Positions 1 through 54,040 of a stretch of DNA of 64,000 bases are shown piece by piece (position 1 is the first letter of the stretch; every line of letters begins with the position of its first letter). Location: assembly GCA_016868035.1 (NCBI GenBank), contig VGID01000001.1, positions 128,289-192,288 of the forward strand, written 5' to 3'. The DNA comes from Betaproteobacteria bacterium (GTDB taxonomy: Bacteria; Pseudomonadota; Gammaproteobacteria; Burkholderiales; SG8-41). The translations under genes and the position numbers were made by a program. Under the pieces are notes generated by a model. The model was not told the DNA's origin and did no database searches. It was given only the letters and a program-made list of their open reading frames with translations.

Positions 1-727
1 GCAGCCGGAACGCTTGCAGCAGCGTCTGCTGCACCCGCTGTTCCTGCGCTGCCGGCAGTCCGCACGGGCAGATGTAGCGCGTATCGTCGGAGAAATACTT
101 CGCCTCGTAGTCGTAGAACACGCGCGGCGTCTCGAGCCGGATCAGCGGCAGCGGCTCCCCGCCCAGGATGGCCCCGGTCAACTCGATGCCCTCGATGAAG
201 CGCTCCGCGATCACCGTCGCGTCGTATCGCCGCGCAAGCTCGTGCGCGGGGGCAAGCTCGTCGGCCGAGGTCACCTTGCTCATGCCGATGCTCGATCCCT
301 CGCACGCCGGTTTCACCATCAGCGGCAGGCCGACCCGTGACGCGACCCCGGCGTAATCGCCGCCCGCACCCAGCAGCTCGTAGGGCGGCGTCGGTATGCC
401 CGCCGCGTGCCACAGCAGCTTGGTGCGCCACTTGTCCATCGCGAGGGCGCTCGCCATCACGCCGCTCCCGGTATAGGGAATTCCCAGGTACTCGAGCGCG
501 CCCTGCACCGTGCCATCCTCTCCGAAACGCCCGTGCAACGCGATGAATACGCGGTCGAACTTCTGCGCGGCGAGCGCCTCGAGCCGCTGCTCGCGCGGAT
601 CGAACGCATGCGCGTCCACGCCCTTCTTCTTCAGGGCGGCGAGTACCATCGTGCCGCTCTTGAGGGAGATTTCCCTCTCGGCCGATTTGCCGCCCATCAA
701 AACTGCCACTTTCCCGAGCCGGTTCAC
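1..727 (-). CDS. ddl: D-alanine--D-alanine ligase, 5' part (runs off the window)
   Basis: ATP-grasp enzyme that joins two D-Ala for the peptidoglycan stem peptide in the cytoplasm. About 242 codons are present; the C-terminal part lies beyond base 1. Visible are the N-terminal [19 protein letters not shown], the [12 protein letters not shown] segment and the [14 protein letters not shown] region typical of Ddl. I chose the GTG at 725-727, preceded by GGAGAAGAG, because it adds the conserved VAVL strand that the ATG ten codons later would lose. It is the last dcw gene in the window, downstream of murB. Its 5' end is duplicated upstream (see repeat). Confidence 0.95.
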
Positions 728-878
728 TCACTCTTCTCCGTGCCAACGGCTCACTTGGGCGGCAACGTGCGCCTCCAGGGTCGCATCCCCGCAAACGGGG
801 CCCCTGCTCCGCCCTCCAGCGCCCCCGCCCATCAAAACTGCCACTTTCCCGAGCCGGTTCACTCACTCTTCTCCGTCC
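692..878. repeat. Direct duplication of the ddl start region, period 135 bp
   Basis: About 50 bp spanning the ddl ribosome-binding site, GTG start and first codons (about 692-741) recur almost unchanged at about 827-878. The spacer carries a GC-rich hairpin, TCGCATCCCC-N6-GGGGCCCCTGCTCC. The period is 45 codons, so the second copy is in the same reading frame as ddl. Confidence 0.9.
728..862 (-). CDS. Possible 44-codon leader ORF abutting ddl
   Basis: The upstream copy of the duplicated ddl start reads from a GTG (860-862) as [17 protein letters not shown] and on to WHGEE, then stops at a TGA that directly precedes the ddl GTG. It retains the same upstream GGAG-containing context as ddl only in part. 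Translation could deliver ribosomes to ddl by coupling; this is inference and no product function is claimed. It could equally be an untranslated by-product of the duplication. Confidence 0.3.
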   Translation of the reverse strand: MNRLGKVAVLMGGGAGGRSRGPVCGDATLEAHVAAQVSRWHGEE

Positions 879-882
879 CTGC

Positions 883-945
883 TGGTCACCATTCACCGTT
901 CACTGGTCACCATTCACCGTTCACTGCTCACCGATCACCGGTCAC
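883..945. repeat. Heptamer tandem tract between murB and ddl
   Basis: Degenerate 7-bp units of the type GGTCACC/ATTCACC/GTTCACT run for about 60 bp and end at the murB stop codon. The gap 728-941 contains only this tract and the ddl 5' duplication. Confidence 0.8.
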
Positions 946-1910
946 GTCTCTCCAACGATCCGCACTTCGCGCTCGAGCGCGATGCCGAACTTCTCCCGCA
1001 CCGCGTTCTCCGCAAGCTCGATCAGCGCCTCGATATCGGCGGCGCGCGCGCTGCCGAGGTTCACCACGAAGTTGGCGTGCTTCCCGGAAATCTGCGCGCC
1101 GCCGATGGTGCGGCCCTTCAGCCCGCATGCTTCGATCAGGCGCGCCGCGTAGTCGCGCTGGGGGTTGCGGAACACCGAGCCGGCATTCGGCTGGTTGAGC
1201 GGTTGCGTAGCAATGCGGCGCCGGAGCAGCTCCTTGATCTTGCGCCGCGACTCCTCGGCATCACCGGCACGCAGGCGGAAGTACGCGGCGACGAACCATT
1301 CTTCCGAGGGATGAATACCTTCCGCCTTCTTCCTTCCGCCTTCTTCCTTCAGCATGACGTGCCGGTAGGCGATCTCGTAGTCAGCGGGCGTGCGCGTGTG
1401 CAATGCCCCGCTGCGGTCCACGGTCTCGGCCCGCGCCACGATGTCCCACGCCTCGCCGCCGAAGCAGCCGGCATTCATCGCGAGCGCCCCGCCGACCGTG
1501 CCCGGGATGCCCGCCAGGAACTCCGCTCCGGCAAGGCCGTGCAACGCGGCAAACCGCGCCACTCTCGGGCTCGCCACGCCAGTCTCGGCGTAGATCTCGC
1601 CCTCGCTTGCGCCCGCGCCCGCGCCCCCGAGCCGCATCGCGCCGAGCGCGGGGTGCGTGAAAATCACCGTCCCTCGAAGGCCCCCGTCGCGCACCAGCAG
1701 GTTGCTGCCCAGGCCCACCATGTGCACGGGCTCGCCCGCCGGAACCCCGCGCAGGAACTCGCGCAGGTCCGCGAGGTCCGCGGGGGAATAGGCGCGCTCC
1801 GCGGTCCCGCCGGCACGCCAGCTGGTGTGCCGCGCCATCGGCTCATGGAGCCGCAATTCACCTCTCAGCGCGTCTCCGGGCTTTCGCGTCTGCTTAACCA
1901 TCGCTACCAT
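942..1910 (-). CDS. murB: UDP-N-acetylenolpyruvoylglucosamine reductase MurB
   Basis: FAD enzyme that reduces UDP-GlcNAc-enolpyruvate to UDP-MurNAc with NADPH, the second committed step of peptidoglycan precursor synthesis. The FAD-domain signatures GLGSNLLVRDGG, GIPGTVGGALAMNAGCFGG and the C-terminal NAGSVFRNP are visible. The ORF-track start (1988) lies in repeat sequence; I prefer ATG 1910 (or 1901) just before VKQTRKPGDAL, giving about 322 aa. A segment EEGGRKKAEGIHPSEE is coded by an in-frame repeat (about 1307-1352, units of CTTCCGCCTTCTTC) that I would not expect in the family. It lies between murC and ddl on the same strand. Confidence 0.94.
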   Translation of the reverse strand: MVAMVKQTRKPGDALRGELRLHEPMARHTSWRAGGTAERAYSPADLADLREFLRGVPAGEPVHMVGLGSNLLVRDGGLRGTVIFTHPALGAMRLGGAGAGASEGEIYAETGVASPRVARFAALHGLAGAEFLAGIPGTVGGALAMNAGCFGGEAWDIVARAETVDRSGALHTRTPADYEIAYRHVMLKEEGGRKKAEGIHPSEEWFVAAYFRLRAGDAEESRRKIKELLRRRIATQPLNQPNAGSVFRNPQRDYAARLIEACGLKGRTIGGAQISGKHANFVVNLGSARAADIEALIELAENAVREKFGIALEREVRIVGET

Positions 1911-1984
1911 CACCCGCAAGGGCGGAGGGATGAAGGCGGAGGGATGTCCTCTCCGCGCGTGGTCTCTGAGAAGCCGGCTCGCTC

Positions 1985-3436
1985 TCATCCCTCATTCCCC
2001 GCCTCTCGTCTCTCGTCTCTCGTCTCTCGCTCGGCTCCCTTCTTCCCCGCGAGCATGGGCGGCACGCCGCCAATCGTGCCCGCGCCCATCGTCAACACCA
2101 CGTCGCCATCGCGCGCGAGCTCGAGGATCGCGTCGCGAACTTCGCCGGCCGACTCCACGAACACCGGCTCCACCCGGCCCTGCACCCGCACCGCCCGGGC
2201 GAGCGCGCGCCCGTCCGCCGCGACGATCGGCCCCTCGCCCGCCGGATACACCTCCGTGAGCACCAGTGCGTCCGCGGTGGAGAGCACTTTCACGAAATCC
2301 TCGAAGCAGTCGCGCGTGCGCGTATAGCGGTGCGGCTGGAACGCCAGCAGCACCCTGCGGCCGGGGAAGGCGCCGCGCGCCGCGGCAAGCGTTGCCGCCA
2401 TTTCCGCGGGGTGGTGTCCGTAGTCGTCCACCAGCGTGAAGGTGCCGCCCGCGGGCAGCCGCACCTCGCCGTAGTGCTGGAAACGGCGGCCCACGCCCTT
2501 GAACTCCGCGAGCGCCTTGACGATCCGCTCGTCCGTCGCGCCGAGCTCGGCCGCCACCGCAATCGCCGCCAGCGCGTTCTGCACGTTGTGCGTGCCGGGC
2601 AGGTTCAGGGTGACCTCGAGATCGGCCCCGGGCGCCCTGCCGTTGGGCTTGCGCTCGACACGGAATTTCATCTGCGGCCCGTTCGCCCGGACGTCGAACG
2701 CTCGCACCTGCGCATCGGCCGAAAGCCCGTAGCCGGTGATCGGCTTGGTGAGGCTCGGCATGATCGCGCGCACGCTCGGGTCGTCCACGCACAGCACCGC
2801 CATGCCGTAGAAAGGCAGCCGCTGCACGAAGTCCACGAACGCCTGGCGCAGCCTGTCCAGCGAATGATCGTAGGTCTCCATGTGGTCGGCGTCGATGTTC
2901 GTCACTACCGCCAGCGTGGGCTGCAGGTACAGGAACGAGGCATCGGACTCGTCGGCCTCGACCACGATGAATTCGCCGGCACCGAGCTTCGCGTGCGAGC
3001 CCGCCGCCTCCAGCCTCCCCCCGATCACGAACGTCGGGTCCATGCCCGCTTCGGCGAGTACGCTCGCGATGAGGCTCGTCGTGGTGGTCTTGCCGTGCGT
3101 GCCCGCCACCGCGATGCCCTGCTTGAGCCGCATGAGCTCGGCGAGCATCAGCGCGCGCGGAACGACCGGTATCTTTCGCGCGCGCGCGGCGACGACCTCC
3201 GGGTTGTCCTCTTTCACAGCGCTCGATACGACGACCGCATCTGCGCCGGCAACGTGTCCGGCTGCGTGCCCCGTGTAGATCCGCGCGCCGCACGACTTCA
3301 GGCGCCCGGTGACGGGGCTCTCCGCGAGGTCCGATCCGCTCACGTGATAACCGAGGTTCACCAGCACCTCGGCGATTCCGCTCATTCCCGCGCCGCCTAT
3401 GCCCACGAAGTGCACGTGTTTGACCTTGTGCCTCAT
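1985..3436 (-). CDS. murC: UDP-N-acetylmuramate--L-alanine ligase MurC
   Basis: Cytoplasmic Mur ligase adding L-Ala to UDP-MurNAc with ATP. The start [20 protein letters not shown] gives the N-terminal nucleotide-fold motif, followed by the P-loop [11 protein letters not shown], the [11 protein letters not shown] segment and VDDYGHHP near the C-terminal domain. The ORF-track start 66 bp upstream is rejected; ATG 3434-3436 has a GGGG just upstream. The protein is 483 aa and ends with a tail [15 protein letters not shown] coded by the heptamer tract GAGAGAC (about 2001-2031), probably an acquired extension. The 5' end is duplicated twice in tandem upstream. Confidence 0.96.
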
Positions 3437-3591
3437 TACCCCTGGCCGCGACCCTTGCGCGCAGCGCAACCGGCGGCCGGCGCCACTCGCGGCCGCTCGC
3501 ATCCCCTCGCCACCGCGAGGGGCCCCTGCTCCCTGCTCGTGTACGCCCCGCCTATGCCCACGAAGTGCACGTGTTTGACCTTGTGCCTCAT
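3436..3591 (-). CDS. murC leader ORF, proximal copy (51 aa)
   Basis: It starts with [16 protein letters not shown], identical to MurC, then diverges after the repeat junction into an Arg/Ala/Gly-rich sequence ending RKGRGQG. Its TAA overlaps the murC ATG by one base (TAATG), a layout suited to translational coupling. It was created by the 155-bp duplication. Whether it is translated is unknown, and no function is claimed. Confidence 0.35.
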
Positions 3592-3746
3592 TACCCCTGG
3601 CCGCGACCCTTGCGCGCAGCGCAACCGGCGGCCGGCGCCACTCGCGGCCGCTCGCATCCCCTCGCCACCGCGAGGGGCCCCTGCTCCCTGCTCGTGTACG
3701 CCCCGCCTATGCCCACGAAGTGCACGTGTTTGACCTTGTGCCTCAT
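3591..3746 (-). CDS. murC leader ORF, distal copy (51 aa)
   Basis: Second duplicate of the murC start, identical in sequence to the proximal leader ORF and ending with the same TAATG overlap onto the next copy. Together they place three in-series start sites ahead of the MurC body. Confidence 0.35.
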
Positions 3747-3846
3747 TACCCCTGGCCGCGACCCTTGCGCGCAGCGCAACCGGCGGCCGGCGCCACTCGC
3801 GGCCGCTCGTCTCTCGTCTCTCGTTTCTCGCCTCTCGTTTTCATGC

Positions 3847-4923
3847 TCATGCTGCTTCCGCCAGCTCCATGCAGATCTGTGCCACCGTTTGCGTGGCGTC
3901 GGGTCGGCCCGCCTCGCGGGCGGCTCTCGCCATCGCCAGCAGCCGCTCGCGCGTGAGCCCGGCCAGCACCTCCGCGAGACGCTCCGGGGTCAGGTCGCGC
4001 TGCGGCAGCAACAGAGCCGCTCCGCGATCGGCGAGGTAACCTGCGTTTGTCGTCTGGTGATCGTCCACCGCGTGCGGGTACGGCACCAGCACCGAGGCCA
4101 CGCCCGCGGCGGCCAGCTCCGCGATGGTCGAAGCGCCGGCCCGGCAGATGATGCAGTCGGCCTCGGCATACCGGGCCGCCATGTCGTCGATGAATGCGAC
4201 GACTTCGGCGGCGACGCCGCTGCTGCGGTAGCCCTGCCGCACCGTCTCGTGATGCGCCGCGCCGGCCTGATGCAGGACGTGCGGGCGCTCGGGCTCCGGC
4301 ATCCGCGCGAGCGCCAGCGGCATCACGGTATTGAGCGCCCGTGCCCCCTGGCTGCCGCCGATCACGAGCAGCCTGAGCCGGCCGCTGCGTCCCCCTAGGC
4401 GTGCATCCGGAGGCGCGAGCCGAGCGATCTCCTCGCGCACCGGATTTCCGGTGACGATGACCGCGGTCGCCTTCCCGAACGCCCCCGGGAATGCGGCAAG
4501 CACGCGGTCGGCGAGCTTCGCGAGCACGCGGTTGGCGAGCCCCGCGACCGAGTTCTGCTCGTGGATCGCGAGCGGACGGTTGAGGAAGGAAGCCATCATT
4601 CCGCCGGGGAAGGACACGTAGCCGCCCATGCCCAGAACGACGTCCGGGCGGTGCGCGAATATCGCCTTCGCGCTTTGCCAGAAAGCGATCAGCAGCTCGA
4701 GCGGCAACAGCGCGTAGCGCAGCGGCCCGCGCCCGCGCACGCCGGATGCGCGAATCCACGCCATGTCGTAGCCCCGCGGCGCGACGACGCTGGCCTCCAT
4801 GCCCTTGCGGCTGCCGAGCCACACCACTCTCCAGCCCCGGGCGCGGAGATATTCCGCGACCGCCAGCGCGGGGAAGATATGGCCCCCGGTGCCCCCGGCC
4901 ATGATCATGATCGTCCGGCTCAT
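3847..4923 (-). CDS. murG: UDP-GlcNAc:undecaprenyl-PP-MurNAc-pentapeptide GlcNAc transferase MurG
   Basis: GT-B glycosyltransferase at the inner face of the membrane that converts lipid I to lipid II. It begins [20 protein letters not shown] (the GGTGGH loop binds the lipid diphosphate) and has [23 protein letters not shown] and the donor-binding [15 protein letters not shown]. It is 358 aa, normal for MurG. ATG 4921-4923 overlaps the ftsW stop by ATGA, a typical coupled junction. The 783-aa ORF in the track is this gene preceded by an out-of-frame shadow of ftsW. Confidence 0.97.
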
Positions 4924-6080
4924 ACGGTGAAGCCTCTCATCAGCTGCCGGTTTTCCCAGTCCACTCTCAGCAGCACGCCGATCGCGCAGCACGTTGCGAC
5001 GAGCGCGCTGCCCCCGAAGGAGAGCAGCGGCAGGGTGAGCCCCTTGGTGGGCAGCACCCCCATGTTGACGCCGATGTTGATGATTGCCTGCACGCCGATC
5101 CACAACCCGATACCCTGGGCGACCAGCGCGGGGTAATAGCGCTCGAGCGCGGCGGCGCGCCGCCCGATCGCGAACGCACGCATCACGACCCAGCAGAACG
5201 CGAGCACGATCGCCGCGACCCCGGCGAAACCGAGCTCCTCGGCAATCACGGCCAGCAGGAAGTCGGTGTGCGCCTCCGGCAGGTAGAACAGCTTCTCCAC
5301 GCTCGCGCCCAGACCGACGCCGAACCACTCCCCGCGCCCGAACGCGATCAGCGCATGGGAGAGCTGGTAGCCCTTGCCGTACGGATCGGCCCACGGATCC
5401 ATGAATCCGATCACGCGCTGCAGGCGATAGGGGGAAGCGAGGATCAGCCCGGCGAAGCCCGCGAGCATCAGCCCGAACAGCCCCGCGAACAGCTTCCAGT
5501 TCATGCCGCCCAGGAACAGGATGCCCATGGCGATCACGCTGATCACGACGAACGCGCCGAAATCCGGCTCGCGCAGCAGCAGCCAGCTCACGATCATCAT
5601 CACCACGAACAGCGGGAGGAAGCCCTTGCGCAGGCTGTCCATGTGCCCGGCCTTGCGCACCGTGTAGTCGGCGGCGTAGAGCACGACGAACAGCTTCATC
5701 AGCTCGGAGGGCTGCAGGTTCACGAAACGAAGCGAGATCCAGCGCTGGCTGCCGTTCACTTCGCGCCCGATGCCCGGAATGAGAACGAGGATCAGCAGCA
5801 CGATCCCGAGCATGAACAGAAACGGCGCGGCGCGCTGCCACAGGCGCAGCGGGATCTGGAAAGCGATCAGCGCGGCGATCACGGCGATCGCCAGGTAGAG
5901 CCCGTGGCGCGCGAGGTAGAACGCCGGCTGGTGGCCCGTGGAGCGGCTGCCCTCGGCGATCGCGATCGAGGCCGAATACACCATGACCAGGCCGAGCCCG
6001 AGCAGCAGCACGGTCGTCCACACCAGGCTCTGGTCGTAGTCGGCGATCGGCGCGCGCGCTTTGACGTCGGTGTAGAACAT
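4920..6080 (-). CDS. ftsW: Lipid II polymerase / cell division protein FtsW
   Basis: SEDS-family polytopic membrane glycosyltransferase that polymerises lipid II at the septum together with FtsI. Multiple hydrophobic helices are evident. [21 protein letters not shown] and the C-terminal [26 protein letters not shown] region match FtsW. I start at ATG 6078-6080 ([17 protein letters not shown]), two bases after the murD stop, giving 386 aa; the longer track start is out of keeping with the family. Confidence 0.96.
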
Positions 6081-6082
6081 GC

Positions 6083-7483
6083 TCAGCCTCGCCCCGTCCC
6101 GAGACGCCGCACCGCCGCGACGAAGGCCTTGCCGCGCTCGACGTAATTGCGGAACATGTCGTAGCTCGCGCACGCCGGGGAGAGCAGCACCGCGTCACCC
6201 GGCCGCGACGCGCGATACGCCGCTTCCACCGCCGCCCGCATGTCGCCGGCCCGCTCGAGCGGAATGCCCGTTCCGGCGAGCGCGCGCTCGATGCGCCCCG
6301 CGTCGCGCCCCATCAGCACCACCGCGCGCGCATGCTCGCTCGCGACGGGCGCGAGCGGCGCGAAATCCTGTCCCTTGCCGTCGCCCCCGGCGATCAGCAC
6401 CACCGGCCGGCCCATCCCCGAGAGCGCGGCCACCGTCGCGCCGACGTTGGTCCCCTTGGAGTCGTCGAAGAAGGCGACGCCGGCGATCTCCGCCACCTTT
6501 TGCATGCGGTGCGGCAGCCCCTCGAACGCGCGCAGCGCCTGCGCCGCCGCTCCATCGGGCGCGCCGGCTGCGTGCGCAAGGGCATGCGCGGCGAGCGCGT
6601 TCGCCGCGTTGTGCAGGCCCGCGGCGGGCAGCTCGTCCAGCTCCAACAGCCCATGCGTGCCGCGGGCGAGCATGCCCCCGTGGCGGCCGGGCACGATGCC
6701 CCACTCGTCCTCTCCCTGCGGCCGGTCGGTGCCGAAGGTGTATAGGGTGCGGCCGGCGCGGGCCATGTTCATGCTCCAGCGGTCTTCGCGATTCAACACC
6801 TGAATGCCGCTGTCCCCGAACACGCGCGCTTTCGCGGCCGCGTAGTCTGTCATGCTGCTGTACCGGTCGAGATGATCCTCGGTGAGATTGAGCATCGCCG
6901 CCGCCGCCGGCTCCAGGCTCGCGGTGCTCTCGAGCTGGAAGCTGGAGAGCTCCAGCACGAACACCTGCGGGACCGCGGCGCCGTCCTCGATCTGCGCGAG
7001 CGTGTCGAGCACCGGCACGCCGATGTTGCCCGCCACCACCGTGTCGTGGCCGGCGGCGCGAAGTATTGCGCCCGCCATGGCCGTCACCGTGCTCTTGCCG
7101 TTGGAGCCGGTGATCGCGAGCACCTTCGCGGTTCCGAGTTGCGGGTTCGAGGCCCCGAGTCGTTTGAGCCCATGGGCGAAGAGTTCGACGTCGCCTGCCA
7201 CCGGCACGCCGCGCTCGATCGCGCCGGCAACCGGCGCCTGGCGCCGGTCGATGCCGGGGCTGATCGCGATGAGCTCCGCGCCGGCCAGCGTGTCCTCGCC
7301 GAAGGCGCCGGCCGCGACACGCACCTGCGGCAGCTCGCGCGCGAGCGCGGCCGCGTGCGGCGGCTCCGCGCGGGTGTCGGCGACACGCACGTCCGCGCCG
7401 CGGCGCGTGAGCCAGCGCGTCATCGAAAGCCCCGTGTCCCCGAGTCCCAGCACGACTACCTTCCTGCCTTTCAGCGACTCCAT
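6083..7483 (-). CDS. murD: UDP-N-acetylmuramoyl-L-alanine--D-glutamate ligase MurD
   Basis: ATP-dependent Mur ligase adding D-Glu to UDP-MurNAc-L-Ala. The N-terminal [16 protein letters not shown], the P-loop [33 protein letters not shown] and [12 protein letters not shown] are all present. The protein is 466 aa, as expected. It is followed at two bases by ftsW. Upstream it is separated from mraY by about 130 bp of inverted heptamer repeats. Confidence 0.97.
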
Positions 7484-7492
7484 GTCTTTGAT

Positions 7493-7612
7493 ACAGGATT
7501 GAGGATTGCGGATTGAGGATTGAGCGTCCCCACCCCCGCCTCGAACTCAATCCTCAATCCGCAACCCTCATTCCTCAATCCTCGATCCTCGATCCTCGAT
7601 CCTGGGCTCTCA
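7493..7612. repeat. Inverted pair of heptamer tracts between mraY and murD
   Basis: GGATTGA-type heptamers (7493-7525) face CTCAATCC-type heptamers (7545-7605) across a short C-rich spacer. The two arms are complementary, so the transcript could form a long imperfect hairpin inside the dcw operon. Confidence 0.85.
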
Positions 7613-7614
7613 CG

Positions 7615-8700
7615 TCAGCGCAGCTTCAGCGTGGACAAGCCCACGAGCACCAGCATCATCGTGATGATCCAGAAGCGAACGACGACCTGATTTTCCTTCC
7701 AGCCTTTCAGCTCGTAGTGATGATGCAGCGGCGCCATTCGGAAGATGCGCTTTCCAGTGAGCCTGAACGAGATCACCTGCAGCATCACCGAGACCGTTTC
7801 GACGACGAACACGCCGCCCATGATGAAGAGCACGATTTCCTGGCGCACGATGACCGCGATCGTGCCGAGCGCCGCGCCGAGCGCGAGCGCACCGATATCG
7901 CCCATGAACACTTCCGCGGGATAGGCGTTGAACCAGAGAAATGCGAGCCCGGCGCCGGCGATCGCGCCGCAGAACACCGCGAGCTCCCCCGCGCCCGGGA
8001 TGTAGGGAAATCCGAGATAGCGCGCGAACACCACGTTGCCGGCTACGTAGGCGAAGATGCCGAGCGCGCTGCCGATCATCACGATGGGCATGATCGCGAG
8101 CCCGTCGAGCCCGTCGGTCAGGTTCACCGCGTTGCTGGTGCCGACGATGACGAAATAGGTCATGAGGATGAAACCGAAGGCGCCGAGCGGGTAGGCGACC
8201 TGCTTGAAGAACGGGACGATGAATTCCGTCTGCGCCGGCAGGTTCGTGTAGAAGGCGAGGTAGACGGCGGCGGCGATCCCCACCACCGACTGCCAGAAGA
8301 ACTTTGCCCTGGCGGAGAGGCCCTTCGCGTCGCCCACGATCACCTTGCGGTAGTCGTCCACCCAGCCGATGGCGCCGAAGGCGAGCATCACCCACAACAC
8401 GATCCAGACGATGCGGCTCTGGAGGTCCGCCCACAGCAGCACGCTGAGGGTGATCGAGACCAGGATCAGCGCGCCCCCCATGGTGGGCGTGCCCGCCTTG
8501 GCAAGGTGCGTCCGCGGGCCGTCGTCGCGCACCGACTGGCCGATCTTGTACGCGGCGAGCTTGCGGATCAGCGCGGGGCCGATGACGAAGGAGATCACGA
8601 GCGCGGTGAGGCATGCGAGCACCGCGCGCAGCGTGAGGTAACTGAACACGTTGAAGGCGCGGATGTCCTTCGCAAGCCATTGGGTGAGCTCTAGCAGCAT
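7615..8700 (-). CDS. mraY: Phospho-N-acetylmuramoyl-pentapeptide transferase MraY
   Basis: Polytopic membrane enzyme that transfers phospho-MurNAc-pentapeptide to undecaprenyl phosphate, making lipid I. Family motifs include [10 protein letters not shown], the VDDYRKV acidic motif, [13 protein letters not shown] and the C-terminal [15 protein letters not shown]. The length (361 aa) is standard. It lies between murF and murD in the conserved dcw order. Confidence 0.97.
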
Positions 8701-8720
8701 GTGCGCCCTCCGGTCGCAAG

Positions 8721-8761
8721 TTCCGGGTTCGGGGTTCCGGGTTCCGGGCTCCGGGTTCGGC
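8721..8761. repeat. GGTTCCG heptamer tract between murF and mraY
   Basis: About six imperfect copies of GGTTCCG (plus-strand sense) fill the 63-bp gap between the murF stop and the mraY start. Confidence 0.8.
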
Positions 8762-8763
8762 GG

Positions 8764-10194
8764 TCAGGCATGTCTGTCCCCCGTCTCGGTACCCGAATCC
8801 CGCGACTCGAAACTCTTCACGACCCGTTCCATCTGCATGAAGCGCGAGCCTTTCACCAGCACGGTGAGCCCGGGGGCGAGCGCGTTCTCCACTTCCGCGA
8901 GCAGGTCCTCGATACGCGTGAAGTGGCGCGCGCCGGCGCCGAACGCCCGCGCGGCGTTCGCGGAGAGTTCGCCGAACGTGTACAGCCGCTCGATGCCCGC
9001 GCGCCGTGCCACCTCGCCGGTCTCCGCGTGCATCGTCGCGGCTCCCGCGCCGAGCTCGCCCATGTCGCCCAGCACCAGCAGCTTCTTTCCGGGCGCCTCG
9101 GCGAGCACCTCGATCGCTGCCAGCACCGAGGCCGGGTTCGCGTTGTAGGTGTCGTCGATCAGCGTGGCGCCGTTCAACCCCGCCTTCTTCTGCAGCCGCC
9201 CCTTGATCCCCGGGAAGCGCGCAAGTCCGGCCGCAATGCTTGCCGCCGGCACCTCGAGTGCCACCGCGGCCGCGCTCGCCGCGAGCGCGTTTTGCACGTT
9301 GTGCACGCCGGGCGCCCGCAGCACCGCGGCTGCGTCACCGAGCGGGGTTTTCACCACGATCTCGCTTTCGAGAAAGCGCAGCCTGTATGCGGCGGTCACG
9401 GCGGCCCCGGGCGCGAGTCCGAATTCGATCCGGTTGCGGTCTGCGGCGAGCTCGCGCATGAGCGGGGCGTGGCGGTCGTCGGCATTGATCACCGCCGTGC
9501 CCTCGGGCTTCAGGCCCTCGAAGATCTCGCCCTTGGCCGCGGCGATGGCTTCCTCGGTACCGAAGAACTCGATGTGCGCGGGTCCCACGTTGGTGACAAG
9601 CGCCACATCGGGCGCGGCGAGCCGCGTGAGATAGCGGATTTCCCCGGCGTGGTTCATCCCCATCTCGACCACCGCGTAGCGGTGCGCGGCCCGCAACTCG
9701 AGCAGAGTGAGAGGCACCCCGATGTCGTTATTCAGATTGCCGCGCGTGGCCATGACGCGGGACTCAGGATCGGGGGCCGAGGATTGAGCGGAGACGGTTT
9801 CGCGCAGGATCGAAGCCAGCATTTCCTTTACGGTCGTCTTGCCATTGCTCCCGGTAAGGGCAACCAGCGGCAGTGAAAACTTCCGCCGCCAGTACGCGGC
9901 GAGCCTGCCGAGCGCGAGCCGCGTGTTCCCGACGACGAGCAGCGGGAGTCGGTCACTCAATCCCCGATCCTCGATCCGCGACCCTGCTTCCTGCACGAGC
10001 GCGCCCGCCGCCTGCGCGCGCGCCGCCTGCGCGAGGAAATCGTGGCCGTCGTAGCGCTCGCCCTTAAGCGCGACGAACAGCGCGCGCTGCGAAAGTGAGC
10101 GCGTATCGGTGCTCACGGCCTCGAAGGCGCGATCCTCGCCGCGCAACTCGCCCGCAATGGCGCGCGCAGCCTCGGACAGCCGCATCATCGTCAT
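8764..10194 (-). CDS. murF: UDP-MurNAc-tripeptide--D-Ala-D-Ala ligase MurF
   Basis: ATP-dependent ligase completing the UDP-MurNAc-pentapeptide. The sequence shows FVALKGERYDGHDF, the P-loop LTGSNGKTTVKEML, MATRGNLNNDIGVPLTLL, VEMGMNHAGEI and DDTYNANPAS. Two segments look like in-frame repeat inserts: AGSRIEDRGLSD (about 9952-9988) and SAQSSAPDPESR (about 9767-9790), both coded by GGATCGA/GGATTGA-like heptamers and lying just before and after the P-loop strand. It is 476 aa. Its start overlaps the murE stop by four bases. Confidence 0.96.
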   Translation of the reverse strand: MTMMRLSEAARAIAGELRGEDRAFEAVSTDTRSLSQRALFVALKGERYDGHDFLAQAARAQAAGALVQEAGSRIEDRGLSDRLPLLVVGNTRLALGRLAAYWRRKFSLPLVALTGSNGKTTVKEMLASILRETVSAQSSAPDPESRVMATRGNLNNDIGVPLTLLELRAAHRYAVVEMGMNHAGEIRYLTRLAAPDVALVTNVGPAHIEFFGTEEAIAAAKGEIFEGLKPEGTAVINADDRHAPLMRELAADRNRIEFGLAPGAAVTAAYRLRFLESEIVVKTPLGDAAAVLRAPGVHNVQNALAASAAAVALEVPAASIAAGLARFPGIKGRLQKKAGLNGATLIDDTYNANPASVLAAIEVLAEAPGKKLLVLGDMGELGAGAATMHAETGEVARRAGIERLYTFGELSANAARAFGAGARHFTRIEDLLAEVENALAPGLTVLVKGSRFMQMERVVKSFESRDSGTETGDRHA

Positions 10195-11759
10195 AGGGTC
10201 GCGAGCGCCTCCCTCGCTGCCGCGGCGTCGGAGAAAGGATGTCTCACGCCCGAAATCTCCTGGAAATCCTCGTGACCTTTTCCGGCGAGCAGCACGATGT
10301 CGCCGCGGCGCGCGTCGGCGAGCGCATGGCGGATCGCGCGGCGCCGGTCCGCGACGATCACGCGCTCGCCTTCGTGCGCGCGCATTCCGCCCACGATCTC
10401 CTCGATGATGCGCCGCGGGTCCTCGCTGCGCGGGTTGTCCGAAGTGACGATGACGCGGTCGGCCAGCCGGACGGCGATCCGTCCCATCAGCGGCCGCTTG
10501 CCGCGGTCGCGATCGCCGCCGCAGCCGAAAACACAGATCAGTTTCGAGTCTCGAGTCTCGAGTCTCGAGTTACGGTCCCGTTGCACCCTTGCGTCTGAAC
10601 CGGAACCCGGAGTCCGGAGCCCGGAACTTAGTAGTTCGCGTAACGTGAGCAGCGCTTGCTCGAGGGCGTCGGGCGTGTGCGCGTAGTCGACGACGACCAG
10701 CGGCTTCGCGCCCCCGCCGATCCGCTGCAGCCGGCCCGGTACCGCCTTCAGCCGCCCGAGCGCGGCGACCGCCTTGCGCAAGGGCACGCCGCTCGCGAGC
10801 AGCACCCCGAGCGTGCCGAGCAGGTTGGACGCGTTGTGGCGGCCAAGCACCGGGCTCGCCACCCGCGCGTTTCCCCACGGCGTGCGCACGTCGAAGCGCA
10901 CTCCGCGCGCGTCCGAGGCGAGATCGGCTCCCGCAAGCTGCGCCCCCGTGCGGCGGCCGAACCCGTATCCGATGACCTCCAGCCCGCGGCGCCGTATCCT
11001 CCGGGCGAGCTCGGCGCCGAAATCGTCGTCGAGATTGAGCACCGCTGCGCGCAGCGTCTCCCACGCGAACAGGCGCGCCTTCGCTTCCTTGTAACGGGCC
11101 ATGGTGCGGTGGTAATCGAGGTGGTCGCGCGAGAGATTCGTGAACAGCGCAACGTCGAACTCGACTCCCGCCACACGATGCTGGTCGAGACCGATGGAGG
11201 AGACCTCCATGCTCACCGCGGCCGCGCCGCGGCGGGCGAACTCCGCGAGCTGGGCCTGAAGCCACAGCGCGTCCGGGGTGGTGTTGGCGAGGGGTTTCAA
11301 CGGGGCGCGCATGCCGTAGCCGAGCGTGCCGACGACCGCGCATGCGCGGCCGGTGCGGCTGAGCGCCTGCGCGATCCACTGGCCGCACGTGGTCTTGCCG
11401 TCGGTTCCGGTCACCCCGACCATCCACATCCTGCGGCTCGGCCGGCCGTAGACGCGGGCCGCGATCTCCCCGGCGTACCGGCGCAGGTCCGCCACCCCGA
11501 GGTTGCGCACCCGCCACCGCGGGTCCCAGCGGAATCCGTCGCGCTCCCACAGCACGCAGTCCGCGCCCTTTTCGATCGCCTGGGCGATGTAGTCGCGCCC
11601 GTCGCGCAAGGCGCCCGGATAGGCGACGAAGGTGTCGCCCGGGCGCACTTCGCCGCTGTGCCCCGCGAGCCGCCGGATGCCCAGCGCCTCGATCGCTTTC
11701 CAGTCCGGCCGCCCTGCTCGCTTCGCTCTGCCTCTCAATCCTCGATCCTCGGTCCTCAA
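10191..11759 (-). CDS. murE: UDP-MurNAc-L-Ala-D-Glu--2,6-diaminopimelate ligase MurE
   Basis: Adds meso-DAP to the stem peptide. Visible are RPGDTFVAYPG, the P-loop VTGTDGKTTCGQW, SMEVSSIGLDQHRV, FTNLSRDHLDYH, VVDYAHTPDALEQ and the DAP-recognition SDNPRSEDP. An in-frame insert of about 30 residues (SSGLRTPGSG to LETRDSK; 10538-10636) coded by TCTCGAG and CCGGAGT-like heptamers splits the strand before ICVFGCGGDRDRGKRP. The only plausible start I see is a TTG at 11757-11759 lying inside another heptamer tract, so the N-terminus is uncertain. Confidence 0.94.
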   Translation of the reverse strand: MRTEDRGLRGRAKRAGRPDWKAIEALGIRRLAGHSGEVRPGDTFVAYPGALRDGRDYIAQAIEKGADCVLWERDGFRWDPRWRVRNLGVADLRRYAGEIAARVYGRPSRRMWMVGVTGTDGKTTCGQWIAQALSRTGRACAVVGTLGYGMRAPLKPLANTTPDALWLQAQLAEFARRGAAAVSMEVSSIGLDQHRVAGVEFDVALFTNLSRDHLDYHRTMARYKEAKARLFAWETLRAAVLNLDDDFGAELARRIRRRGLEVIGYGFGRRTGAQLAGADLASDARGVRFDVRTPWGNARVASPVLGRHNASNLLGTLGVLLASGVPLRKAVAALGRLKAVPGRLQRIGGGAKPLVVVDYAHTPDALEQALLTLRELLSSGLRTPGSGSDARVQRDRNSRLETRDSKLICVFGCGGDRDRGKRPLMGRIAVRLADRVIVTSDNPRSEDPRRIIEEIVGGMRAHEGERVIVADRRRAIRHALADARRGDIVLLAGKGHEDFQEISGVRHPFSDAAAAREALATL

Positions 11760-11785
11760 TCCTCAGCTCTCAGTCCTCATCGCGG
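11730..11785. repeat. GGATTGA heptamer tract spanning the murE start
   Basis: Units of TCAATCC/TCGATCC/TCAGTCC (plus sense) fill the ftsI-murE junction. Read on the coding strand, each GGATTGAGG-type unit offers both a GAGG and a TTG, including the TTG used here as the murE start. Confidence 0.8.
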
Positions 11786-11788
11786 CCG

Positions 11789-13522
11789 TCAGACCTCTTC
11801 CTTGACCTCGGGCGCATCCGGCGGCGGGAGCACCACGTTGTCCATCGGCGCGTCGTACGGCACCGCCATCAGCCTCAGCGCTCCCGCCATGACCTGCGCG
11901 AACACCGGCGCCGCCACCTTTCCGCCGTAGTACTGGCCTGCGGACGGCTCGTCGATCATCACGACCACGATCAGACGCGGGCTGGAAGCGGGAGCGAAGC
12001 CGACGAACGACGAGATGTGCTTGTTCGCGGAGTAGCTGCCGTTCTCGATCTTGCGCGCGGTCCCGGTCTTGCCGGCGACGCGGTAGCCGGTAATCTGCGC
12101 GCGCGCCGCGGTCCCCGCTGGCTGCACCGCCGCCTCCAGCATCGCGCGCACCGCGCGCGCGGTCGCGGACGAGATCACCTCGACCGTCTCTGCCGGCGCC
12201 TCGCGCCGCATGAGCGACACGGCCTTCAACTCCCCGTCAGTGGCGAAGATCTGGTAGGCGCGCGCGAGCTGAAGCAGCGACACCGAGATGCCGTGGCCAT
12301 AGGACATGGTCGCCTGCTCGATCGGGCGCCAGCTCGCGTGCGCGCGCAGCTTGCCGGAGCCCTCCCCCGGGAAGCCCGAGCGCGGCGGGGTGCCGAAGCC
12401 GACCCCGTGGAACAGGTTCCACAACGTCTCGGCTTTCAGCCCGAGCGCGATCTTCGCGGTACCGATGTTGGATGACTTCTGGATCACCTGGGAGACCGTC
12501 AGCGCGCCCAGGGGCTGCACGTCGTTGATCACGCGATCGCCGATGACCAGCGGGCCCGGCGCAGTCTGAATCACGCTCTCCGGGCGCAGCATGCCCGCAT
12601 CCAGCGCGGCCGCGGCGGTGAACGGCTTGAGCGTCGAGCCGGGCTCGAAGAGGTCGGTGATCGCGCGGTTGCGCGTGCGCTTCGCGTCGAGCTTGCCGCG
12701 GTTGTTCGGGTTGAACGCGGGTACGTTGGCCATCGCCAGCACTTCCCCGCTCGCGACGTCGAGCACGACGATGCCGCCCGCCGCCGCGCGATGTGCCGCC
12801 ACCGCGGCCTTGAGTTCGCGGTAGGCGAGATACTGGATCCGGGTGTCGATCGAGAGCTTCACGGTCTGCCCGTTCTGGGGCGCGCGCACGCTCTCGACGT
12901 CCTCGACAATCGAGCCGCGCCGGTCCTTGATCACGCGGCGGCTGCCAGGCCGGCCGGCGAGCAGCGGCTCGAACGCGAGCTCGAGCGCCTCCTGGCCCTT
13001 GCCGTCGATGTCGGTGAAGCCGATGAGATGCGCCATCACCTCTCCGGCCGGGTAGTAGCGCCGGTATTCGCGCTGCAGGAAGATGCCGGGGATGCCGAGC
13101 GCCACGACCCTGGCGGCCTCTTCGGGCGGCAGCTGGCGCTTGAGGTAAACGAACTCGCGCCGGTTGTCGTCGAGCCTCCTGTTGAGCTCGGCGGCATCCA
13201 TCTCCAGCAGCCGCGCGAGGCGCTCGAGCTGCTCCGCGCCGATTCTCACATCCGCGGGGCTGGCCGCCACCGACTCTACGGGCGTGGAGATCGCGAGCGC
13301 CTCGTTGTTGCGGTCCACGATCTTGCCGCGCGTGGCGGTGAGCTCGATCACGCGCGAATGGCGCGACTCGCCCTGCTGCCGCAGAAAATCGTTGTTCAGT
13401 CCCTGCAGGTAGAGCGCGCGTCCCGCCAGCCCGGCGAACCAGAGCAGCAGCAACGCCAGCACCAGACTCGAGCGCCACGTCGGGAGCCTCAGCGCGAGTT
13501 CGGGACGGGCCGCGGCGCTCAC
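11789..13522 (-). CDS. ftsI: Septal peptidoglycan transpeptidase FtsI (PBP3)
   Basis: Monofunctional class B penicillin-binding protein that crosslinks septal peptidoglycan with FtsW. One N-terminal transmembrane helix (WRSSLVLALLLLWFAGLAG) precedes the PBP dimer domain. The transpeptidase motifs are FEPGSTLKPF (SxxK), KSSNIG (SxN) and VAGKTGTARK (KTG). I start at GTG 13520-13522, which overlaps the ftsL stop by GTGA and gives 577 aa; the track start would add an out-of-family 47-residue leader. Confidence 0.97.
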   Translation of the reverse strand: MSAAARPELALRLPTWRSSLVLALLLLWFAGLAGRALYLQGLNNDFLRQQGESRHSRVIELTATRGKIVDRNNEALAISTPVESVAASPADVRIGAEQLERLARLLEMDAAELNRRLDDNRREFVYLKRQLPPEEAARVVALGIPGIFLQREYRRYYPAGEVMAHLIGFTDIDGKGQEALELAFEPLLAGRPGSRRVIKDRRGSIVEDVESVRAPQNGQTVKLSIDTRIQYLAYRELKAAVAAHRAAAGGIVVLDVASGEVLAMANVPAFNPNNRGKLDAKRTRNRAITDLFEPGSTLKPFTAAAALDAGMLRPESVIQTAPGPLVIGDRVINDVQPLGALTVSQVIQKSSNIGTAKIALGLKAETLWNLFHGVGFGTPPRSGFPGEGSGKLRAHASWRPIEQATMSYGHGISVSLLQLARAYQIFATDGELKAVSLMRREAPAETVEVISSATARAVRAMLEAAVQPAGTAARAQITGYRVAGKTGTARKIENGSYSANKHISSFVGFAPASSPRLIVVVMIDEPSAGQYYGGKVAAPVFAQVMAGALRLMAVPYDAPMDNVVLPPPDAPEVKEEV

Positions 13523-13800
13523 GGGTTCTCCTGCGCCGGCGCGGGCGGCACCACCTGGATGCGCCCGGGCGCCGGCACGCGCATGCCGAGCGCCCGCACC
13601 GCGATTTTCTCGACGCGTGCGTGCGTCGCCCACGTGCTCTGCTCGAGCTGCAGCTGTCCCCATTCCACCTCGAGCTTCTTGGCGAGCTCGCCTTCCCTCT
13701 GCAGCTCGACGTAGAGCTTGCGCGCCTGGTGCTGCGAGGTGACCAGCGCCAGCGCGCAGGCGATCAGCGCCACGAGCAGCAGCACGTTAAGCCTGAGCAC
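13519..13800 (-). CDS. ftsL: Cell division protein FtsL
   Basis: Small bitopic divisome protein of the FtsBLQ complex. It has a short N-terminus, a hydrophobic helix ([19 protein letters not shown]) and a periplasmic coiled-coil-prone stretch ([22 protein letters not shown]). It is 93 aa. Its start overlaps the rsmH 3' end by 14 bp and its stop overlaps the ftsI start, as expected in the dcw cluster. Confidence 0.93.
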
Positions 13801-14737
13801 GCGCGCCCTCCTGCGGGAGTTTTTCAGCCACTCGCATCACGGCGCTGCGCGCGCGGGGGTTGGCCGCGATTTCCGCTGCCTGCGGCCGGACCGCGCGGCC
13901 GACGAGCCGCAGCCGCGGCCCCTTGATCTCGCGTGCGCGCACCGGCAGCCGCGCCGGAAGCGCCTCGCCGCGCGCCTGCTCGCGCAGGAAGCGCTTGACG
14001 ATGCGGTCCTCGAGGGAATGGAAACTGATCACCACCAGGCGCCCTGCCGGCTCGAGGAGTTCCACGCACTGCGGCAGCGCTAGCGACAATTCCTCAAGCT
14101 CCTGATTAACGTGAATCCGTATAGCCTGAAACGTGCGCGTCGCCGGATCCTGCCGTGGCTCGCGCGCGGGAACGGCCGCTGCCACGAGTGCGGCAAGTTC
14201 TCGTGTGGTGTCAACAGGTCCCCGCGATCGAGCCGCAGCAATCGCTGCTGCAATCTGTTTAGCAAACCGTTCTTCGCCATAGTTCTTGATTACCTCCCGG
14301 ATTTCCGCCTCGGGCGCATGTGCGAGCCATTCTGCGGCGGTGCTGCCCTGGCTGCGGTCCATGCGCATGTCGAGCGGCGCGTCGGCGCGAAAGCTGAAGC
14401 CGCGGCCCGGCTCGTCGAACTGCGGCGACGACGCGCCGAGATCGAGCAGAATGCCGTGCGCGCGCATGGCGCCAGCGTGGGCCATGTGCTCCGTGAGCCG
14501 GCTGAACCGGCCGTGCCGGATGCTGAAACGCCCGTCAACGATCTCTCCTCCCGCGGCCACCGCCTGCGGATCGCGGTCGAGCGCGATGAGCCGCCCCGCC
14601 CTTCCCAGCCGCGCCAGAATTTGCCGGCTGTGACCGCCGCGCCCGAACGTGCAGTCGACGTAGAGGCCATCCTCCCGCACGTTCAAACTCTCTACTGCTC
14701 GCTCCAACAGGACCGCGGTATGTGAGCCCACGCTCAC
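13787..14737 (-). CDS. rsmH: 16S rRNA (cytosine1402-N4)-methyltransferase RsmH (MraW)
   Basis: SAM-dependent enzyme that methylates C1402 of 16S rRNA. The motifs [35 protein letters not shown] and [15 protein letters not shown] are present. I start at GTG 14735-14737, overlapping the mraZ stop by GTGA (a second GTG lies two codons on), giving 316 aa. RsmI, which modifies the ribose of the same nucleotide, is also in this window. Confidence 0.96.
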
Positions 14738-15180
14738 AAGGAGAAGCCCTCCAGCTCGGGCGGCAATCCGCCCGTGCCGAAACCGTCGGCCTTGTCCATG
14801 AGCTCCTGCCATTGATCCTTGTTCCAGAGCTCGAATTTGCTGCCCTGTCCGACCAGCACCACGTTCTTGTCGAGTTGTGCGAATTCGCGCAGCGCGGGCG
14901 GCACCAGGATGCGCGCGGCCGCGTCCATCTGTACGTCCTCCGCATAGCCGACGAGCCGGCGCTGCAATTCACGGATTTGCGCGTTGAAGCTGGACAGCGC
15001 CATCAGCTTCTGCTCGATGGGCTCCCAGTCGGGAAGCGGATAGATCAGGAGACAGCGGTCGGAATCGGCGGTGACGACGAGCCGGCCACCGCAGCGCTCG
15101 AGCACGGCGTCGCGGTACCGTGCCGGTACCGCCAGCCTGCCTTTGCTGTCGAGATTGAGCTGCGCAACGCCGCGGAACAC
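14734..15180 (-). CDS. mraZ: Transcriptional regulator MraZ
   Basis: Double SpoVT/AbrB-like DNA-binding protein that represses the dcw promoter by binding TGGGN direct repeats. It begins [24 protein letters not shown] and has the second half-repeat [19 protein letters not shown] chose GTG 15178-15180, preceded by AAGGGGGA, giving 148 aa; the longer track start reads upstream control DNA. Its own operator lies about 60 bp upstream. Confidence 0.95.
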
Positions 15181-15237
15181 GAGTCCCCCTTCCACTCCCG
15201 GGCACCGGCGTCCTCCCCTTGCGGAGTCGACACCTTC

Positions 15238-15262
15238 TCCCACTTTTCTCCACTTCTTCCCA
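15238..15262 (-). promoter_or_regulatory. MraZ operator, three repeats
   Basis: The minus strand reads TGGGA-AGAAG-TGGAG-AAAAG-TGGGA, that is three TGGNN half-sites with 5-nt spacers. This is the arrangement described for MraZ boxes. It overlaps the -10 and start region, consistent with autorepression. Confidence 0.8.
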
Positions 15263-15290
15263 CTATATTAAAACGCGGTGGGGCGGTCAA
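15262..15290 (-). promoter_or_regulatory. sigma70 promoter of the dcw operon (PmraZ)
   Basis: On the minus strand, TTGACC (15285-15290) is separated by 17 bp from TATAGT (15262-15267). The predicted transcription start is near 15255, giving a leader of about 75 nt before mraZ. Confidence 0.75.
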
Positions 15291-15295
15291 GGGAG

Positions 15296-15445
15296 TGAGC
15301 GGCGTTTTCTGGTTTTAGGACAAAGACTTATGTGGCAAAATTCACGCGCACTTTTAGATTTGATTGCGGAAAAAATTAAGGCTTTAAAACAGCGTGATAA
15401 AAGCTAAATCGAAAGTAACACTTTAACTTTATGCGGCTCGGGTAC
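15296..15445. other. AT-rich island between mraZ promoter and rnpB
   Basis: This stretch is visibly AT-rich (about 35-40% G+C by eye) in a genome near two-thirds G+C. On the plus strand a 25-codon frame (ATG 15330) reads MWQNSRALLDLIAEKIKALK and stops at TAA 15405-15407. The same frame continues past the stop as protein-like sequence (LTLCGSGTPVLANFEGV) to about 15510. It looks like a decayed remnant of foreign DNA; I do not recognise it. Confidence 0.45.
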
Positions 15446-15514
15446 GCCGGTATTGGCGAATTTCGAAGGTGTTGCGGCTTGGCAACAACCCGGGTATGAC
15501 CGCGCGGAAGAAGG

Positions 15515-15859
15515 AAGGAAAGCTGGCCGATAAGCCGGGTTCTGTGCGGGCCTCGCGGCCCTGGCAGCCATTCCTCTAGGCCCCGGATTGCTCCGGGGCT
15601 CGAGCCACCTACCCGCAAGCTCGGCGGGTCGCGTCGTCGCTTGCCTATTTGGTGTTGCTCCGGGTGGAGGTTGCCTCGTTTCACCCTCGCCACGGTCGCC
15701 CGCAACGAGACTCGTCTCTGTGGCCCTGTTCCTCGCCTCACGGCGGGCGGTGATTAGCCGCCACCCTACCCTGTGGAGCCCGGACTTTCCTCTCCGTGCG
15801 GCACGAGCCATCGTAAAGGCTCGCTTCTGTACGCACGCAGCGGCTGCCTGGCCAGCTTC
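15515..15859 (-). ncRNA. rnpB: RNase P RNA (class A)
   Basis: Catalytic RNA of RNase P, which trims tRNA 5' ends. On the minus strand the 5' end GAAGCTGGCCAGGCAGCCGC, the conserved GAGGAAAGTCCGGGCTCC, the ACTCCACCCGGAGCAA-like core (here CCTCCACCCGGAGCAA), the CAAATAGG stretch and the 3' ACAGAACCCGGCTTATCGGC are all present in order. The length of about 345 nt fits the bacterial A type. Its 3' boundary is set by pairing with the 5' end and may be off by a few bases. Confidence 0.95.
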
Positions 15860-15868
15860 CCAACACAC

Positions 15869-15874
15869 ATTGTA
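15869..15874 (-). promoter_or_regulatory. -10 element of rnpB
   Basis: TACAAT on the minus strand ends ten bases before the mature RNase P RNA 5' end, a fitting position for a start at about 15862. No clear -35 was seen. Confidence 0.5.
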
Positions 15875-15953
15875 CTACCTCCGCCCGGCGCGGAACGAAC
15901 AGCGCATGGGGCTCATCATGGTGGTGGAGCCGATGCGCCGCGTCCTGGAAATC

Positions 15954-16535
15954 TCAGTCCGCGCCCTGCGCCGGCAGCGCACGCACCGCGGCGAGCACGC
16001 GCAGCAGATTGTGGTCGGACACCCCGAGTTCGGCGAGATGGTCGAGCGTGCGGGTCAGGTATTCGATATTGGACCCGCGCGTGCCGCAGCAGGTAGCCAC
16101 CGTGCTCGCGGTCTGCTCGGTGGACAGCTTTCCCGCATAGCCCGGGTGCCGCCGGTCGGCGATGAAGGTCAACGCCCTGACTTCCTTGTCCGGAAGCCGC
16201 GCGCGCATCATCCGCGGTTGATACACGCGGCGCGACATCTCGCGCGCCCACAGTCCCTCGAGCGCCGTCTCCACGTCGGCCACGGCAACCCGGAACGCAA
16301 TCCCGTGGCAGGCGCCGCCCCGGTCGAGCCCCAGTACCAGCCCGGGGCGATCCGCGGTGCCCCGCCAGCGGTTCGAATAGATGCACAGCGCGCGATGGTA
16401 GCCATAGACGAGCGCCGGCGCCCAGTTCACGTAGGGAAAACCCGGATCCCACATCAGCGACCCGTATCCGAAGATCCACAGGTCTCCCGGCGGGAGCCCG
16501 AGTTCCGTGGGGTGGGTCGTACGGGGGGAGATCAT
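15954..16535 (-). CDS. chaC: Glutathione-specific gamma-glutamylcyclotransferase, ChaC family
   Basis: ChaC-like proteins split glutathione into 5-oxoproline and Cys-Gly. The diagnostic WIFGYGSLMWDPGF substrate loop is at residues 20-33, followed by AFRV and the central LWAREM region. The protein is 193 aa, close to E. coli ChaC. It lies between rnpB and pyrC on the minus strand with 46 bp to pyrC, so it may be cotranscribed with pyrC and rsmI. Confidence 0.88.
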   Translation of the reverse strand: MISPRTTHPTELGLPPGDLWIFGYGSLMWDPGFPYVNWAPALVYGYHRALCIYSNRWRGTADRPGLVLGLDRGGACHGIAFRVAVADVETALEGLWAREMSRRVYQPRMMRARLPDKEVRALTFIADRRHPGYAGKLSTEQTASTVATCCGTRGSNIEYLTRTLDHLAELGVSDHNLLRVLAAVRALPAQGAD

Positions 16536-16581
16536 GGCGGCAGCCTGCGTGAGCCCTTTAACGCCCGGCCGCCGCCCGGGA

Positions 16582-17613: not shown

Positions 17614-17683
17614 GTTCGGGTCAGCGGCGAGCAGTAAGCGGTGAGCGGGCAGCGCGATTCAAGCGTCAGCTGGCGTGCGTATT

Positions 17684-19767: not shown

Positions 19768-19771
<4 letters not shown>
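18563..19771 (+). CDS. lpoA: LppC/LpoA-family penicillin-binding protein activator
   Basis: Periplasmic-binding-protein fold relative of LpoA, the factor that activates PBP1A from the outer membrane. A signal peptide (LGLLLTAAILYGGVPALA) is followed by a Pro/Ala-rich linker (residues 30-75) and an LppC domain (HVALLLPLKSTAFGQHAEAVRNGF; VVVGPLTRSGVTAI; DAFRVANELL). It lacks the N-terminal TPR half of E. coli LpoA. No lipobox cysteine is visible after the signal sequence, so membrane anchoring is doubtful. Its place upstream of yraN-diaA-dolP supports the call. It ends in a GTGA overlap with yraN. Confidence 0.88.
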
Positions 19772-20746
<975 letters not shown>

Positions 20747-21316: not shown

Positions 21317-21385
21317 TGCGTGAGTGGTGAGCGGTGAGTCGTGGCTGCCGCTACCGCTTACTGCTTGCCGCTTACCGCTTACCCG

Positions 21386-21914: not shown

Positions 21915-22062
21915 AAAACCGGTAATGGGTAATGGGTAATGGGTGACGTGGACAGGAGTAACCGGTTCTCGCCCATTACTCATATTACCGGTCACCCGTC
22001 AGTCGTCACTCGTCAGTCGTCACCCGTCAGTCGTCACCCGTTACTCGCTCCAAATTGTGCCC
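21915..22062. repeat. Inverted heptamer tracts upstream of the hldE-type gene
   Basis: GGTAATG units (about 21919-21946) face complementary CATTACT/CCGGTCACC units (about 21972-21996), followed by CAGTCGTCA/CCGTCAGT units to about 22050. No gene is seen between 21815 and 22109. Confidence 0.8.
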
Positions 22063-23691: not shown

Positions 23692-23694
23692 CGC

Positions 23695-24628: not shown

Positions 24629-24657
24629 CCGCTCCCCTGTTCTGTGAAACCCACATT

Positions 24658-28779: not shown

Positions 28780-28831
28780 GCCACGATTCACGACTCACGA
28801 TTCACAAGTCACGAGTCACCAAGAGTAGGCA

Positions 28832-48034: not shown

Positions 48035-54040
<6,006 letters not shown>

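Follow-up and report, generated by a model that had tools for sequence, protein, structure and literature searches.

Heptamers are over-represented among the tandem repeats of bacteria, and surveys cited by PMC4692102 have asked why. In Xanthomonas (GGGAATC) and Nostoc (GGGGA(C/T)T) they are intergenic, occur in about four copies and as convergent pairs near genes, and are rare between divergent genes; they accompany the same genes in related species, yet differ there in length and sequence, and both function and origin are left open, with the idea of polymerase-footprint slippage being cited (PMC4692102). The TAACTGA heptamers of Beggiatoaceae, Cyanobacteria and Bacteroidetes are also intergenic, tandem and patchily distributed, with indels between Cyanothece strains falling mostly in 7-nt increments, and comprise a single unit, mostly in direct repeats just before start codons, whose one-base variants are rarely repeated (PMC4679880). 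Geobacter metallireducens carries tandem heptanucleotides (GGGACCG; MTYCTGA) at many intergenic and intragenic sites, which are read as elements of gene regulation or as sites bound by regulators and which, unlike the repeats described below, have a fixed unit and copy number (PMC2700814).

Here we describe heptamer arrays in a betaproteobacterial genome of 3.9 Mb and 127 contigs, centred on a 64-kb stretch analysed in full (hereafter the window), whose MraY is closest to that of the metagenome-assembled genome (MAG) Betaproteobacteria SG8_41 (87%). Like the Xanthomonas and Nostoc repeats, these arrays are tandem, strongly intergenic, paired with the G-rich arm first (in 48 of 48 inverted pairs of this genome) and depleted between divergent genes, where 6 of 47 gaps hold a tract compared with 108 of 267 others (p = 2e-4). 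Unlike that type, in which each genome has one unit family capable of forming G-quadruplexes (G4), they comprise 57 different units once rotations and complements are merged (‘necklaces’), few of them G4-capable, and they include in-frame arrays in UvrA loops and units replaced in register across species. With the TAACTGA type they share intergenic tandem heptamers and a patchy occurrence across lineages; TAACTGA is absent from the units listed in this genome, and placement before start codons does not apply because many of the tracts sit in convergent gaps, where start codons are lacking. Repetitive extragenic palindromes (REP) and their composites (BIME) are intergenic hairpins present in many copies per genome, REP being a palindrome of 20-40 bp with a GTAG/CGTC tag and a RAYT transposase. 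The arrays resemble them as intergenic hairpins of many copies, but differ in that Y1/RAYT genes do not track the trait, and no fixed palindrome or tag emerged from comparing loci and hairpin arms. This genome thus extends the known heptamer repeats in its unit diversity, its general polarity and its direct evidence of concerted evolution.

The seven-base period and its units

Exact runs of at least 11 at a lag of 7 occur 13 times in the window, against 0-2 times at lags divisible by neither 7 nor 15; the corresponding counts are 13 at lag 14 and three each at lags 21, 28 and 15. Across 377 kb sampled from this genome their density is 202 per Mb, compared with 0-16 at non-multiples of 7. Intergenic gaps of at least 40 nt, 314 in number and 60 kb in sum (with approximate limits, because genes were called with our own codon model and verified with Pfam at some loci), contain 134 lag-7 tracts where dinucleotide shuffles contain 0.1. 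Lags 5, 6 and 8 yield 1, 0 and 4 tracts in the same gaps, and lags 9 and 10, with 8 and 11, are minor but real classes. Tracts cover 9.3% of intergenic bases and 0.2% of coding bases. The original prediction of a shared 7-bp period is therefore borne out, the autocorrelation signal standing far above background in both the 377-kb sample and the gaps; its claim that repeats fill most intergenic gaps was overstated, since 114 of the 314, about a third, hold a lag-7 tract.

Most of the places named in that prediction do contain such tracts. Around 883 lies an intergenic TCACCGT/TCACCAT tract (886-945), at 8721 a GTTCCGG tract in the murF-mraY gap (8720-8758), at 11730 a tract of CTCAATC type in the ftsI-murE gap (11734-11779) and at 28782-28819 one of CACGATT/CACGAGT, none of them assigned a strand. 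The others are G-rich and C-rich tracts on opposite strands. At 7493, in the mraY-murD gap, a G-rich arm of AGGATTG (7495-7524, + strand) faces a C-rich inverted partner of CTCAATC (7546-7603, - strand). The convergent gap at 21319-21385 has a G-rich GTGAGTG/GTGAGCG arm (21320-21338, +) and its C-rich partner TACCGCT (21352-21383, -), and 21915-22047 contains a G-rich GGTAATG tract (21921-21944, +) and a C-rich GTCA(CC/GT)C tract with a 14-bp alternation (21987-22047, -). The stop codon that ends gene 29210-29449 is also the start of a G-rich TGACGAC tract (29447-29474, +), which is followed by C-rich CCTCATT/CCTCAAT (29487-29522, -). The C-rich arm TACCGCT at 17685-17712 (-) extends into gene 17684-18523 at its 3' end; the arm pairs with 17613-17650 (+), which proved to be a degraded G-rich arm of AGCGGTA/AGCAGTA, and the repeat at 23695 is a hairpin with a period of 15 bp, not 7. 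Further tracts, likewise without assigned strand, are CTCGTCT in the murG-murC gap, on its murG side (3806-3837), CGTGATT/CGTGAAT (22868-22900) and CACGATT (30135-30165).

Repeats of other kinds also occur in the window. The 15-bp-period inverted pair extends over 23691-23898 (TCACGCATCATCACG), likewise with its G-rich arm first, and hairpins or arrays with periods of 9 and 10 bp lie at 24657-24687 and 24803-24832, 22613-22639 and 22961-22988, with a 10-bp unit AACGCAGATA and 9-bp units CGCAGAGGA and ACACAAAGG. In the murG-murC gap, positions 3389-3809 hold 2.7 copies of a 155-bp unit, each carrying a duplicate of the murC start and a conserved core, GAGCAGGGAGCAGGG..GGGATGCGA.CGGCCGCGA, that recurs in the same gap of several relatives; the repeat has the look of a small element, structured or mobile, accompanied by duplication of a gene start. 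The gap near 15515-15859 is long because it is occupied by RNase P RNA, encoded on the - strand.

Unit counts come from a 441-kb sample, made up of the window and 20 further stretches, on which the genome-wide figures are based. The 57 necklaces were found in 165 tracts; as 11 of the 20 stretches were chosen around CAATCCT matches, the count was repeated on the subset without them, where 89 tracts contain 44 distinct units. The expectation that each locus has its own unit holds to that extent, and fails in that families such as AATCCTC recur at many loci. Units aligned by rotation share a weak consensus on the G-rich strand, ARGRKTG (expectation-maximisation (EM) score 2.91, against 1.89 +/- 0.06 for shuffled units), so that a period shared without shared sequence describes the tracts only in part: they have the period in common to a far greater degree than the sequence, but the consensus exists and units recur genome-wide. 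Locus-specific units and one degenerate family, posed as alternatives, are thus each partly true. A single base separates the commonest unit, GAGGATT, from GGGGATT of Nostoc, and the unit GGGATTC of the relative G004 fits the Xanthomonas consensus GGGANTN (PMC4692102); a likeness to cyanobacterial repeats in form but not in sequence was correctly foreseen as to form, the Nostoc layout being the same, but not as to sequence. TGA is enriched in the units (95 against 38). A role as a stop codon was rejected: TAG is absent from the units and arrays also occur in frame within genes, so TGA seems to belong to the consensus. An outgrowth of arrays from the stop codon upstream was likewise rejected, TGA being oriented 58 times along and 53 times against the gene in co-directional gaps.

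Pairing, polarity and inheritance in place

Of 74 pairs of neighbouring tracts within 100 bp of each other, 48 are inverted and 4 direct, where random pairing would give 14% and 13%. This confirms the inverted pairs that had been predicted; the mraY-murD gap folds as single-stranded DNA at -34.6 kcal/mol (z -7.3 against shuffles). Elsewhere the ratio of inverted to direct is 17:0 in relatives of the family, 4:2 in the group f24 and 15:0 in other groups, and the G-rich arm comes first in 17 of 17 pairs in the relatives and in 83 of 84 over all groups pooled. The same polarity governs the position of tracts within gaps: left-half tracts have G-rich sequence on the + strand (74:12) and right-half tracts are C-rich there (77:10), such that the G-rich strand is directed inwards on either side of the gap, next to genes of either direction, in 151 of 173 cases (p = 7e-25). 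Single arms obey it more laxly (44 of 56), and gaps free of tracts lack the pattern. Being identical on both strands, it cannot come from strand bias. Tracts occupy 89 of 228 co-directional, 19 of 39 convergent and 6 of 47 divergent gaps.

Comparison of orthologous gaps revealed, as predicted, that units change between species while position and period persist. In the mraY-murD gap the unit is GAGGATT, GAGGATC, TAGGGAC, TGAGGAG, GTGAACA or others depending on the species, both arms having changed; some species have no array, and G008 and G003 have arrays or hairpins of 10-bp period instead. Units of different species differ by 1.94 mismatches within the same gap and 2.73 between gaps (permutation p = 5e-4, murG-murC gap excluded), which indicates that arrays are inherited and then drift. 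Several relatives (L184, L179 and L032; MraY residues 332-361 in the matches) carry a second copy of the terminal ~75 nt of mraY downstream of that gene, adjoining hairpin sequence, perhaps as a gene-end-duplicating element or scar.

Coding tracts had gone unremarked in the original prediction, although 11 tracts of the window lie within called coding sequences, seven of them in one gene. This DNA-repair gene (48035-54040) encodes a fused double UvrA of 2001 residues, recognised by its Pfam UvrA domains and with relatives in 17 of 17 genomes searched. On the + strand, in-frame arrays occupy a loop near residue 232 (GTCAGTC, 48744-48771), the loop at 844-879 (AGGTTCG, 50583-50655), where most relatives have a shorter loop and no array, and a loop at ~1880 (TCACGGA, 53679-53720); the loop at 1660-1697 holds an in-frame hairpin with a G-rich arm at 53040-53068 (+) and its C-rich partner at 53093-53125 (-). 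In the loops other than that at residue 232, the units of arrays or hairpins again vary between species, and the loops of more distant relatives are short and array-free. Such arrays lengthen conserved proteins and can mislead the annotation of genes and repeats. Further along the window, the ribonucleotide reductase large-chain gene (55934-59905) contains a LAGLIDADG intein.

At residue 232, four-copy arrays stand in the same place in ten species, our own and nine sampled relatives, one of which belongs to another family (G104), and the aligned segment measures 39 residues in six of the ten. The unit is GTCAGTC here and CTCATCC, CTCAGCA, CTCATCA, CTCACCC or others in relatives, around a constant TC(A) core. 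With the 28-nt arrays aligned in register by hand, copies agree at 6.37 of 7 positions within a species and the same copy at 4.38 of 7 between species; judged by these alignments, the loop is a case of concerted evolution in place. Since steps of 7 nt would break the reading frame, homogenisation must here leave the length unchanged, a point in favour of conversion rather than simple slippage. As a clean in-register record of block replacement, the loop makes the rate, step size and direction of rewriting measurable.

Possible origins of the arrays

Arrays that are fixed in place, and whose sequence is replaced as a block between species, point to a local copying process on DNA. The reading we favour, with a probability of roughly 0.55, is that the tracts are old heptamer arrays rewritten in place by local slippage and hairpin-templated copying, giving concerted evolution. 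The fixed period, polarity, pairing, in-place inheritance and within-array homogenisation are established from the sequence; the events behind them we infer. One unit variant would spread within an arm by slippage steps of 7 nt, a pattern that is observed, and template switching across the hairpin would hand it to the partner arm, as the sharing of units between paired arms suggests, so that place and period would be kept while the whole block of sequence drifts. Arrays may survive where harm is small, behind stop codons, in operon gaps and in flexible protein loops, and their scarcity between divergent genes may reflect where promoters lie. The step of 7 and the inward G-rich polarity could arise if polymerase stalls and slips at the base of the hairpin, with the C-rich template copied on either strand. 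Concerted evolution of this kind needs no new enzyme. Against the slippage model, plain slippage does not predict a preference of more than 30-fold for 7 over 6 or 8, and the ARGRKTG consensus could be a binding site under selection instead.

Selection on a degenerate unit as a DNA site, whether for a protein or for a structure such as a G-quadruplex, cruciform or nucleoid-protein complex, would suit that weak consensus and the strict polarity, and the Xanthomonas and Nostoc units do form G4 in vitro (PMC4692102). It is nevertheless rather improbable, as units differ widely between loci and species. GGG is found in 26 of 165 units and four GGG runs in 5 of 165 tracts, so G4 cannot be the common cause, and dozens of units with one period and one polarity in a single genome weaken the case for G4 or any single binding motif as a general cause. 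We also consider it rather unlikely that the tracts are selected RNA hairpins or 3'-end signals (terminators, mRNA stabilisers or translation uncouplers) whose arms are periodic by chance. Enrichment in co-directional and convergent gaps, depletion in divergent ones and a mraY-murD hairpin far above shuffles all accord with that explanation, but in transcript sense the hairpins of co-directional gaps have 69 G.U pairs and 76 A.C mismatches; the arms thus do not look selected as RNA, which argues for formation at the level of DNA. T-run terminators in positions 1-20000 of the window number 3 against 9.4 in shuffles, with none at a tract, the only Rfam match is the RNase P RNA, again not at a tract, and hairpins also occur within coding loops and the dcw operon.

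A mobile element dispersed through the genome, be it of REP/RAYT type or some other small transposon, and landing behind genes, would account for one unit family at many loci, the hairpin shape and the preference for gene ends. It is very unlikely given that arrays are inherited at the same site across species, that loops are not conserved between loci and that no plasmid or phage match was found, although the low-complexity filter of BLAST may hide some. Y1 transposase genes are missing from strong positives (G001, G004 and G012) and found in negatives. The initial preference for a generating mechanism over a mobile sequence is upheld in part on these grounds; units are not arbitrary at each locus. 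The observed polarity is also what two fused G-rich 3' ends would leave if both ends of a double-strand break gained telomere-like G-rich heptamers and were then joined head-to-head. Such scars are highly improbable here: Ku is absent from this genome and from all sampled positives of the family, which also counts against Ku-dependent end joining as the writer, reverse transcriptase is absent from G001, G003, G004 and G012, unique-sequence loops separate the arms, and arrays persist and drift in place instead of arising anew.

Beside the favoured rewriting by slippage and hairpin-templated copying, we regard as quite unlikely a dedicated or repurposed activity that would copy DNA seven nucleotides at a time at the base of hairpins, writing and rewriting arrays across several bacterial lineages; were it to exist, the strand polarity and ARGRKTG bias would be its fingerprint. 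Gene-presence tests, which are able to exclude a gene that is required but not to reveal one not yet known, rejected as writer both the Y1/RAYT transposase (G249 being a further positive without the gene, and many negatives having it) and the reverse transcriptase, missing from the strong positives G001, G003, G004 and G012.

Distribution among genomes

A census of the motif GTRANNG in three copies found 372 sites in this genome and tens to hundreds in scattered lineages, but zero in 239 of 300 genomes of the order, and more than zero in only 29 of 299 genomes of the phylum. Within the genus g30, G249 has 95 sites and six congeners 0 or 1. Sampling for lag 7 irrespective of unit (up to 40 kb per genome) gave high densities in the genus of the window and in a number of its sister genera, and most others showed no tracts. 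Both the census and this sampling overlook some arrays, as in G028, where the UvrA array is present despite a near-zero score; the patchiness is thus one of abundance rather than of strict presence.
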